Origin: Halapricum salinum
Lineage (GTDB): Archaea; Halobacteriota; Halobacteria; Halobacteriales; Haloarculaceae
Direction of reading: 5' to 3'
DNA: 64,000 nucleotides
Assembly (NCBI RefSeq): GCF_004799665.1
Contig: NZ_CP031310.1
Location: forward strand, 2,658,887 to 2,722,886
The notes below the pieces were generated by a model. It saw nothing but the letters and a program-made list of their open reading frames with translations. It had not been told where the DNA came from and did no database searches. Made by a program: the position numbers and the translations under genes. Below are positions 9,350 to 18,263 of the stretch, piece by piece (within the stretch, counting starts at the first letter, position 1; each line of letters starts with the position of its first letter).

Positions 9350-9406
9350 GTCTCAACGAACCCCGAACAGCACAAAAAACGTTCCGGTGGGGTGAATTCG
9401 GCCCCG

Positions 9407-9563
9407 TCTCCCGGCTGGACTGCTCGCACATCAACGTGCTCGCGAGCCGCCGTCGACACCGCTTCTCCCGGCTGGACTGGCCACGCATGAACGTGTGGCC
9501 GTGCCGCCGTCGACACCGCTTCTCCCGGCTGGACTGCTCGCACATCAACGTGCTCGCGAGCCG
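9407..9563. repeat. 57-bp tandem repeat, almost three copies, each with a hairpin
   Basis: Three units start at 9407, 9464 and 9521, spaced exactly 57 bases; the third is cut after about 43 bases. Each begins TCTCCCGGCTGGACTG. Units 1 and 3 carry a stem GCTCGC...GCGAGC; unit 2 has a different stem at the same place, GGCCAC...GTGGCC. So base pairing is kept although the bases changed. It lies between the membrane-protein start (9349) and the msrB stop (9577). It has no spacers and is not a CRISPR. Confidence 0.85.
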
Positions 9564-12042: not shown

Positions 12043-12573
12043 ATGAGCACCCAGAAGGAAGTCCGGCAGGAAGCCGGCACAGTCGATGAGAACCGCCTTC
12101 GCCTGGAGCAAGGAAAAGCCGAGCAGATCGTCGAGGCGTTGAACACCGACCTCGCCGCGACGTACGTCCTCTATCACCAGCTCAAGAAACACCACTGGAA
12201 CGTCGAGGGTGCGGAGTTCCACGACGTCCACGTCTTCCTCGGGGAGGCCGCCGGTCGGGCCGAGGAAGCCGCCGACGAACTCGCCGAGCGCCTGCAGGCC
12301 ATCGGCGGGGCGCCGATCGCCGGCGGGAAGAACCTCGAAGAACACGCCCCGGTCGAACCCGAGGACGAGGACGTCTACGATATCCGAACCTCGCTCGAAA
12401 ACGATCTGGAGATCTACGGCGACATCATCGAGAGTCTGCGCGATCACATTGACCTGGCGACGAACCTCGGCGACCACGCGACCGCGGAGCTACTCCGAGA
12501 GATCCTGGTCGAAGTCGAAGAAGACGCTCACCACATCGATCACTACCTCGAAGACGACTCGCTCGTCCAGTAG
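12043..12573 (+). CDS. dpsA: DNA-protecting ferritin-like protein DpsA
   Basis: A 176-aa Dps of the haloarchaeal DpsA type: a dodecameric iron-storing protein that oxidises and mineralises Fe(II) and protects DNA from peroxide chemistry. The ferroxidase motif at the dimer interface is clear: KKHHWNVEG (His51 region), then DVHVFLGE with His63 and Glu68. The length is the same as known haloarchaeal DpsA. The C-terminal EEDAHHIDHYLED segment adds extra His/Asp residues. It stands alone behind an AT-rich promoter. Confidence 0.95.
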   Translation: MSTQKEVRQEAGTVDENRLRLEQGKAEQIVEALNTDLAATYVLYHQLKKHHWNVEGAEFHDVHVFLGEAAGRAEEAADELAERLQAIGGAPIAGGKNLEEHAPVEPEDEDVYDIRTSLENDLEIYGDIIESLRDHIDLATNLGDHATAELLREILVEVEEDAHHIDHYLEDDSLVQ

Positions 12574-12585
12574 CTGACCTCACCC

Positions 12586-13548
12586 TTATCGGCGCTCGAT
12601 CGCTGCCATTCCGTCTTCGAATCGGTAGGTCGTCGACGCCAGCCTGAAGACGTGCCCGTCGTCGTCGAGGATCTCGAAATCGTACTCGGTTTCGCCGTCT
12701 TCGAAGACGAAGCGTCCCGACTCGACTGAAGGCTTCTTCACCTCGGGAACGGTTTCGACGTGGTCACCGTATTTGGCGAGTAGCCGCTGCCAGTGCGTCT
12801 GTAGTTTCGCGGCTGCGATCACGTCCGGGGAGTCGCTCAGTGCCACGCCCTCCAGCGTGATCGACCCACGAATCCCGCCGCCGCGTCCGTACGGCCCCTC
12901 CGAGGACGGCTGGTCGGCCCTCTCACAGACGAGTTCGAGTCGGACGACGCTGTCTCGGACGCGCTCGTCGACACCGCTCAGGTCCCAGTACAGCCGAACC
13001 GGCTGGCCTTGCGGGACGCTGAACGTCTCGGAGGTGAGGCTCGCCTCGCGAGATCGGCCGGCACGACCGCGACCGGTATGTGCGCGGTTTCGCGGCGGAG
13101 AGGACGTACTCGAGCGTCCTCGCCCGGCGCGGTGGCTGTCGTGGACGAGCCGGAAGGACGCGTGGATCGGTGCGTCGGTCCCTGCGAGGTCGCCTGCTGT
13201 GACCGTCGCCGTGAGATAGGGGTGGCCGATCCAGTCCGCGTCGCGTGCTCCCCGTTCGTTCGTGATCGTCGCCGTTGTCACGCCGTCGGCGTCGAACCGG
13301 AGTGCCGCCGAGTCGCTCGTGACGGCGCCCGGGCGGTCGGCGCCTCGGACGCGCTCGACCGACACCAGATCTGCGCCCTGCCAGCCATCGACTCCCTTCT
13401 CGAACTCACACAGGCCGATGACGTCGCCACCCTGGGCGGCGACCGGGATCAGTGGAAGTCGGTCGTCGTCCCGGCTGCCATCCGAACTGGGTCGATCAGC
13501 GCCTCGGGTTGGGCGTCTGGGTGCGTGGCTCCCCCACATCTGTATCAC
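12586..13548 (-). CDS. Hypothetical beta-rich protein
   Basis: A 320-aa protein with a GTG start at 13548 (an ATG at 13539 is possible); a TATA-like ATTAAG 28 bases upstream supports the GTG. No signal peptide. After a 50-residue basic, probably disordered head, residues about 50-245 look like a jelly-roll or carbohydrate-binding type fold (FEKGVDGWQG...SAALRFDADG...HPYLTATVTAGD; RLYWDLSGVD). A Ser/Arg-rich insert interrupts it near 150-170. The last 70 residues hold a small domain, ETEYDFEILDDDGHVFRLAST. I do not know the function. Confidence 0.6.
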   Translation of the reverse strand: MIQMWGSHAPRRPTRGADRPSSDGSRDDDRLPLIPVAAQGGDVIGLCEFEKGVDGWQGADLVSVERVRGADRPGAVTSDSAALRFDADGVTTATITNERGARDADWIGHPYLTATVTAGDLAGTDAPIHASFRLVHDSHRAGRGRSSTSSPPRNRAHTGRGRAGRSREASLTSETFSVPQGQPVRLYWDLSGVDERVRDSVVRLELVCERADQPSSEGPYGRGGGIRGSITLEGVALSDSPDVIAAAKLQTHWQRLLAKYGDHVETVPEVKKPSVESGRFVFEDGETEYDFEILDDDGHVFRLASTTYRFEDGMAAIERR

Positions 13549-13673: not shown

Positions 13674-13826
13674 CTATCGCGGAAGCTCGACGGTGAGGTC
13701 GGTCGCGATCCAGCCGTCGGCGTTGCCGTCCTCGGTGAATACGGTCTTTTCTTCCGAACAGGTGTGAGCCTTCACTGCCGGGCGGTCGTCGTCAGTGCGT
13801 TCGTCGAGCGAGCGCGAATTTGCCAT
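13674..13826 (-). CDS. 50-aa haloarchaeal small protein behind DtxR-like operators
   Basis: Reading from ATG 13826 leftwards gives a clean 50-codon frame ending in TAG: MANSRSLDERTDDDR..., a short HTCSEEKTVFTEDG segment and the closing DGWIATDLTVELPR. The pattern of an acidic head followed by a 'W-I-x-x-D-x-x-V-x-L' tail resembles a family of very small haloarchaeal proteins of unknown function. A TATA-like CTTTTACC lies about 27 bases upstream, giving a leaderless transcript. Two palindromes overlap this promoter, so it is probably under metal-dependent repression. Confidence 0.7.
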   Translation of the reverse strand: MANSRSLDERTDDDRPAVKAHTCSEEKTVFTEDGNADGWIATDLTVELPR

Positions 13827-13835
13827 CGAATGTGA

Positions 13836-13876
13836 TTAGGTCTGCCTAAAGGTAAAAGCGTTTTGGGTCTCCCTAA
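13836..13876. promoter_or_regulatory. Two DtxR/IdeR-like operator palindromes
   Basis: Box 1 at 13836-13849 is TTAGG-TCTG-CCTAA, a perfect 5+4+5 palindrome. Box 2 at 13863-13876 is TTGGG-TCTC-CCTAA, the same with one mismatch. Their centres are 27 bases apart and they flank the TATA-like element of the 50-aa gene starting at 13826. TTAGG/CCTAA arms are typical of DtxR/IdeR-family metalloregulators, represented in haloarchaea by SirR/Idr proteins. The layout suggests iron- or manganese-dependent repression. Confidence 0.7.
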
Positions 13877-13885
13877 ACTGCGAGA

Positions 13886-14461
13886 TTACTCTTCGTCGGG
13901 GCCGAACACCGCGGCGGCGTCGGCGGGCACGTCGAAGTCGTGGAAGTGTTCGCCCTCTTCTTTGCTCAGGATGTTCAGCGCTGCCGCAGCGCCGTCGCCC
14001 GCGGAGATGACGGCCTGCCACTCTTCGGCCCGGACCATCGCGCCGGTCGCGTAGGCGTCGGCGACGCTGGTCTCCATGCTCAGGTCGACGTCGACGAGAT
14101 CGTCCTCGAAGTCACAGCCGAGCGATTCGGCGAGGTCGCGATTCGCCCCTGTCGCCAGGATCAGGTAGTCGGCCTCGTGTTCGCTGTCGTCGGTCGTGAC
14201 GGTGAAGGTGCCGTCGGATTCGGTGACGTCGGTCACTTCTGCCTCGTGGCTGTCGACGCCGAAACTGTCGACCTGTGTCCGGAGAGTTTCGAGGAAGGCC
14301 GTCCCGTCCTGGGAACCGATTCCCGGGTAGTTGAACAGGTGGGCCTTGTGGATCCACGTCTCGTCCGTGTCGAAGACCGCGGTGTCGAGACCGTTCTTCT
14401 GGGTAAACAGTGCTGCGCTCAAGCCGGCGGGACCACCGCCGACGACGAGTACGTCTGTCAC
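13886..14461 (-). CDS. Small FAD-dependent oxidoreductase (thioredoxin-reductase-like)
   Basis: A 191-aa flavoprotein. The FAD-binding GGGPAG is at residues 8-13, followed by a FNYPGIGSQDG segment like that of thioredoxin reductases, the ILATGANRDL motif and the second FAD motif TSVADAYATGAMVRAEEWQAVISAGDGAAAA. The NADPH-binding domain and the CxxC disulfide of true thioredoxin reductase are both missing, so it is an FAD half only. The GTG at 14461 gives the canonical MTDVLVVGGG start. It lies upstream of the operator-controlled 50-aa gene on the same strand. Confidence 0.85.
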   Translation of the reverse strand: MTDVLVVGGGPAGLSAALFTQKNGLDTAVFDTDETWIHKAHLFNYPGIGSQDGTAFLETLRTQVDSFGVDSHEAEVTDVTESDGTFTVTTDDSEHEADYLILATGANRDLAESLGCDFEDDLVDVDLSMETSVADAYATGAMVRAEEWQAVISAGDGAAAALNILSKEEGEHFHDFDVPADAAAVFGPDEE

Positions 14462-17240: not shown

Positions 17241-17349
17241 CTACAGTTCGACGCGATCGCCGACTTCGATGACGCGCACGCGTTCGGGATACTCGAAGCT
17301 CCTGGCGTGATTGTGCAGGACTGCCGGATCAGCATTGAGTCCTTTCCGA
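17241..17349 (-). pseudogene. Duplicated 3' end of the MBL-fold hydrolase gene
   Basis: The segment 17248-17349 repeats the last codons of the gene at 17436-18263 with only about three base differences, at a fixed offset of 195 bases. Its frame, read leftwards, reproduces the C-terminus GLNADPAVLHNHARSFEYPERV and ends GDRVEL followed by TAG at 17241-17243 (the intact gene ends GDRVDL). It has no start codon and no catalytic part. It is a relic of a tandem duplication or unequal exchange. Confidence 0.85.
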
Positions 17350-17435
17350 GACCACTTTTTCCCGTTCGGGTGCGCTCCGCGCACCACTCACGGCAAAAAC
17401 ATGGGGAAAAAGACCGCAGGTCGGCAGGAGCGTTG

Positions 17436-18263
17436 TCAGAGGTCGACGCGATCTCCGACTTCGATGACGCGCACGCGTTCGGGATACTCGAAGCTCCTGG
17501 CGTGATTGTGCAGGACTGCCGGATCAGCATTGAGGCCTTTCCAGATATCCCAGTGAGTCGGCAGGAGGGTGTCGGTCTGGAGTTCGTTGGCGGCCTCGAC
17601 GATCTCGTTCTCGTCGCTGTACCACTTGGTGTACTTGGGTTCGCGGGTCTGCTTGTCCGGGATCATCCCGGCGCTGCCAAAGGCGAGCGCTGCGAGGTCG
17701 ACGTCGTATTCTTCGCCGAGTGGTTCGAATTTTCCGGGTCGGGCGTCCCCGCCGTGGACGAACGTTCCCGCGTCGTGCTCGAAGACGTACGCGACGGGGT
17801 GGCCCGCGTCCGGGTCGTTTGCGGGTTCGACGTGAACTGTCAGTGCGCCGAGTTCGATGGTGTCGCCTTCTGCGACCTCGACGAGCTGTGTCTGGTCGAT
17901 GTCGTACTCGACCAGCCAGTTCTCCGTGCGCGCGACGGCGAGACTGTCGTCGGGACCGTAGAAGGGTGTGTCGCTGGCTTCGAGGATCGGGCCCGCTGTC
18001 TCGCCGTGGACGTGGTCGGTGTGCTCGTGGGTCGCCAGCACGGCGTCGACGGGGCCGACGTCGTACGGATCGAACGGCACCGGGACCATCCGGACTGTGC
18101 GGGGCGGGTCGCCCAGGCCGACGTAGGGGTCGACGAAGACTGTCGTCCCGTCGTCGGCTTTCACGATGAAGCCGTTGCAACCGAGATACCAGATCGCGAC
18201 GCCGTCTGGATCGGCGTCCTCGACGGCGCGGGGCAGCCAGTCGCCCCAGTCGCTATGTACCAT
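17436..18263 (-). CDS. MBL-fold metal-dependent hydrolase (UlaG-like)
   Basis: A 275-aa metallo-beta-lactamase-fold enzyme. The metal-binding motif HEHTDH spans residues 79-84, with further ligands in FVHGGDARPG and LLPTHWD. The order and length match the COG2220 / UlaG-like group, whose members include L-ascorbate-6-phosphate lactonase and many hydrolases of unknown substrate. The ATG at 18263 is clear. A partial copy of its own 3' end lies 195 bases downstream, and a hairpin-rich non-coding stretch lies upstream. Confidence 0.85.
   Translation of the reverse strand: MVHSDWGDWLPRAVEDADPDGVAIWYLGCNGFIVKADDGTTVFVDPYVGLGDPPRTVRMVPVPFDPYDVGPVDAVLATHEHTDHVHGETAGPILEASDTPFYGPDDSLAVARTENWLVEYDIDQTQLVEVAEGDTIELGALTVHVEPANDPDAGHPVAYVFEHDAGTFVHGGDARPGKFEPLGEEYDVDLAALAFGSAGMIPDKQTREPKYTKWYSDENEIVEAANELQTDTLLPTHWDIWKGLNADPAVLHNHARSFEYPERVRVIEVGDRVDL

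Follow-up and report, generated by a model that had tools for sequence, protein, structure and literature searches.

A gene of 50 codons from Halapricum salinum is well supported, by comparison across related genomes, as a target of DtxR-family iron regulation, and it may encode an iron-starvation microprotein acting on the iron-storage protein DpsA. We analysed it within a window of 64,000 nucleotides (the whole stretch of DNA under study), in its 3.45-Mb genome and in a series of haloarchaeal relatives. An earlier note on this DNA had suggested a small protein of the iron-starvation response, and comparison now gives that suggestion good support; the linkage to dpsA, a paralogue and a relation to DUF7331 (PF24018) go beyond it.

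We propose the following mechanism. When iron is present, a metal-loaded dimer of the DtxR family would sit on one or two operators that bracket the BRE/TATA and the start site, so that the bound dimer would block transcription; the repressor would most likely be the regulator of Idr type whose gene neighbours that of the paralogue. As iron falls, the small gene would be derepressed together with iron uptake, and the microprotein, with its conserved E32, N35, D37, W39-I40 and D43, would act on the DpsA cage, either promoting the release of iron or stopping its further uptake. Repression by iron and the choice of regulator are what we infer from the sequences, and the action on DpsA is our hypothesis from linkage and co-occurrence. 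As a whole, this is the best explanation we can offer, and we give it slightly less than an even chance of being right.

The promoter and its operators in the genome

The gene occupies positions 13674-13826 on the minus strand, starts with ATG and encodes a 50-aa protein with one His and one Cys. A perfect TTAGG-N4-CCTAA palindrome, the proximal DtxR-type operator (13836-13849, minus strand, -23 to -10; TTAGGTCTGCCTAA), lies between the TATA element and the start codon. Upstream of it, with 27 bp between the operator starts, is a distal operator with one mismatch to this motif (13863-13876, minus strand; TTGGGTCTCCCTAA), and the TATA element CTTTTA (13853-13858, minus strand, -32 to -27) stands between the two. 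On the gene's strand the promoter reads, in order, TTAGGGAGACCCAAAACG-CTTTTA-CC-TTTAGGCAGACCTAA-TCACATTCG-ATG. Leaderless haloarchaeal genes are expected to carry their TATA element at this position, and CTTTTA at -32 to -27 is therefore consistent with a leaderless start. Both the pair of palindromes flanking the TATA element, one perfect and one with a single mismatch, and the leaderless 50-aa gene were indeed where the earlier note had placed them. The distal operator can also be read on the gene's strand as TTAGG-N5-CCAAA, in which case its right half falls where the relatives have theirs, and it runs into CCAAAA, similar to an archaeal BRE, to which it is probably fused.

A gene for a TrxR-like short flavoprotein (13886-14461, same strand) ends 10 bp before the distal operator; we considered it as a conserved partner of the small gene and rejected it, since it is not a conserved neighbour. 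Elsewhere in the window, a 48-nt unit occurs three times at 57-bp spacing (9402-9563; 75-96% identity to the first copy), and similar repeats at the peptide level are found beside a DUF7331 gene in another locus (L031). A 103-nt direct repeat (17245-17542, 97%), with one copy at the 3' end of a metallo-hydrolase-like ORF and the other just past it, looks like a partial duplication of the gene end.

Within the window, the motif at up to two mismatches is uninformative (3 sites seen, 3.8 expected). Over the whole genome, the exact motif TTAGG-N4-CCTAA occurs 12 times against once for the reversed control, whereas sites with exactly one mismatch are not enriched (18 for the motif, 50 for the control). 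Only exact sites therefore count by themselves, and the distal site of the window is supported instead by its position and by being conserved. A genome search for the motif, as the earlier note had suggested, shows that it marks iron genes, the operator of the small gene being common to iron-uptake genes of the same genome; the refuting condition set by that note, absence of the motif from other iron genes, thus does not hold. Exact copies lie just 5' of FeoA, of two Peripla_BP_2 proteins and of an SBP_bac_8 solute-binding protein, of a DtxR-family regulator gene with tandem sites 36 bp apart, and also of genes for a GMC oxidoreductase and a reversibly-glycosylated-polypeptide-like protein; a FecCD permease gene starts about 130 bp past another. 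The Fe_dep_repress matches of the genome are candidate cognate regulators, and the one at C1:685606 has tandem operators of its own. Were the regulator a sensor of manganese instead of iron, the small gene would answer to manganese starvation. Manganese sensors do exist among DtxR-family proteins, and the genes of a ZnuA-like protein and of a ZIP-family protein carry one-mismatch sites, but such sites are not enriched over the control and the exact ones stand at FeoA and siderophore-type binding proteins, which makes manganese improbable.

Two other operator-bearing loci may be mentioned. In L013 (2648-2902), a 79-aa ORF with no Pfam match directly follows an exact operator and is itself followed by a cupin gene; it is possibly another unknown member of the iron regulon. 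In L014 (3385-4566), the reversibly-glycosylated-polypeptide-like gene with its operator adjoins an ABC solute-binding protein gene that carries an operator of its own, and further operator-bearing genes of this kind occur in loci of Halapricum and Salinibaculum (L086, L105, L125, L141).

Protein family and conservation of the operators

The genome encodes a paralogue of 55 aa, 42% identical to the window protein and with an exact operator 5' of its gene. This gene overlaps an Amphi-Trp-like gene (a sub-threshold Pfam match), adjoins the DtxR-family regulator gene mentioned above and faces a second dpsA in convergent orientation; the same subtype is found next to a DtxR gene in several genomes. 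With a profile built from both proteins, 54 of 59 relatives proved to have a homologue. When a sample of the phylum was searched, matches came from 38 genomes, 37 of them in the same order (Halobacteriales), the lone match outside it being weak and containing an internal stop, so that by sequence the family appears order-wide and essentially absent elsewhere. A virus origin was rejected because no relative of the protein was found in viral contigs.

Nearly all haloarchaeal homologues share the DtxR-type repressed layout that the earlier note had described for a single promoter. Operators with 0-1 mismatches lie 5' of all 80 homologues from a collection of named genomes, the background at these loci being 18 such matches per 757,565 positions, and 5' of 60 of the 63 homologues from the set of relatives, window included. 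Among the 80, both sites are present in 30, the proximal one only in 9 and the distal one only in 41, mostly from Halorubrum. The relatives keep the proximal operator at -22/-23 and the same TATA element between the operators. Proximal sites are near-perfect, with T at position 12 in 39/39, while the distal sites have A or G there in 71/71 homologues (CC[A/G]AA); this fixed departure is probably a BRE embedded in the operator.

The protein is conserved as well. Residues V29, E32, N35, D37, W39, I40 and D43 vary little or not at all among the homologues, and a dN/dS of about 0.14 over the core indicates purifying selection and supports translation of the gene. Since the ORF is very short and spurious ORFs abound in this GC-rich genome, the gene might not be real, or its palindromes might be accidental, but conservation throughout the order, purifying selection and conservation of the operators make such a coincidence extremely improbable. 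The Cys is not conserved, as checked in 29 and in 47 homologues; metal binding through Cys/His, at which the earlier note had hinted, was rejected on this ground.

The window protein matches PF24018, a family of haloarchaeal small proteins, at 19.6 bits, below the curated cut-off of 27 bits, and 36 of 47 homologues match it at E<=0.01. A core N-x-x-[AG]-W-[IV] is common to DUF7331 and the small protein, which, judged by its sequence, is a related, divergent branch of that family and not a member. The regulatory context differs too: the four canonical DUF7331 genes of the genome have no operator within 1.5 kb on either side. Apart from this sub-threshold Pfam match, the protein has no match in NCBIfam, and a search of the PDB gave neither a sequence match nor a significant fold match. 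Its AlphaFold model (mean pLDDT 67) contains three strands at low confidence, probably a small beta-sheet; because of this pLDDT, fold matches were left out of the argument. DUF7331 goes unmentioned in the literature searched; the regulon papers of Leyn and Rodionov 2015 and Martinez Pastor 2024, which stand outside that search, may already list an orthologue of the small gene.

The link to dpsA

In the window, dpsA (12043-12573, plus strand; NF041388, E=1e-90) is convergent with the small gene, and a 320-codon ORF with no convincing Pfam or NCBIfam match (12586-13548) lies between them, a gap of a kind seen in few other genomes. Across the relatives, 48 of 63 copies of the small gene are found at most 5 kb from a dpsA, 45 of the 48 in convergent orientation, and the link occurs in 43 of 54 genomes from many families. 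In 5 of the 9 genomes with two copies, each copy is linked to a dpsA of its own. Part of the link is explained by inherited gene order, since about 30 of these loci also retain a thiolase gene and a DUF35-like gene in the neighbourhood.

The presence of the two genes also coincides. The small gene is present in every one of the 51 genomes that have a clear DpsA of this family, and all five genomes without the small gene have no clear DpsA of that family (Fisher p ~1e-5, not corrected for kinship). Three genomes have the small gene and no clear dpsA; two of them reach a completeness of just 78-81%, and the small-gene match of the third (G020) is weak and has no operator. Further, where the neighbouring microprotein is of the paralogue subtype, as assigned by eye (six cases), the DpsA proteins form one supported clade (99/96); the DpsA beside one similar microprotein (G028_2) falls outside it. 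Of 29 dpsA promoters, 18 contain a weaker related palindrome, at one mismatch in 3 of them and at two mismatches in 15, and a single one of the 29 contains such a match to the reversed motif; for the window's own dpsA we found no clear operator.

That 45 of the 48 linked copies are convergent, in many cases with a short gap separating the two matches, also speaks for a mainly transcriptional role of the locus, in which low-iron transcription from the operator promoter would run into dpsA and lower its expression by antisense or collision. We regard this as quite improbable, given that the protein is under purifying selection and is conserved where unlinked, and that in the window the 320-codon ORF separates the two genes. 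A stronger competitor is an iron-starvation microprotein, equally under DtxR control, which would act on a transporter, on the regulator itself or on an Fe-S or iron enzyme instead of DpsA; MntS offers a precedent (PMC4361602). The promoter evidence is identical for this reading; nearly all Halorubrum copies are not adjacent to dpsA, yet their operator and protein are conserved, and the occurrence of the paralogue subtype beside a DtxR gene points the same way. Against it, no other gene combines comparable linkage across families with matching presence. A target other than DpsA is a real possibility, although its probability stays somewhat below even.

The way in which Dps cages give up their iron inside cells is poorly understood. 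A microprotein that tracks dpsA across an order, under a conserved iron-starvation promoter, would make the exit of iron from Dps testable in genetically tractable archaea, and the consistently conserved DtxR-type promoter could serve as a marker for iron status in haloarchaea.

Comparison with known systems

The bacterioferritin-associated ferredoxin, Bfd, itself a small protein that works with an iron-storage cage, resembles the microprotein proposed here, the analogy being one of role only. Mobilisation of iron from BfrB requires Bfd, and deletion of bfd locks iron in BfrB (PMC7760384). However, Bfd carries a [2Fe-2S] cluster with four Cys ligands, whereas the microprotein family has no conserved Cys; with the cluster ligands missing, the microprotein cannot be an electron carrier of the Bfd type. 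The partners differ too, a haem-containing Bfr for Bfd and, as we propose, Dps for the microprotein. That an archaeal microprotein family devoid of redox cofactor ligands should be the dedicated low-iron partner of Dps cages, controlling the release or entry of iron as a counterpart, for Dps, of Bfd and bacterioferritin, is an idea that we hold to be rather unlikely.

MntS of E. coli (42 aa) is likewise a tiny protein from the regulon of a metal regulator; it is induced at low manganese and presumably acts as an inhibitor of the exporter MntP (PMC4361602). We claim no sequence relation between the two, and MntS concerns manganese and its exporter. A further comparison is with the DtxR-family iron regulons of haloarchaea (Idr, SirR, TroR). 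DtxR-family regulators of iron homeostasis have been reported in Haloferax and Halobacterium (PMC11349517), so that DtxR control of haloarchaeal iron genes is already known, and the small gene carries sites of that type.
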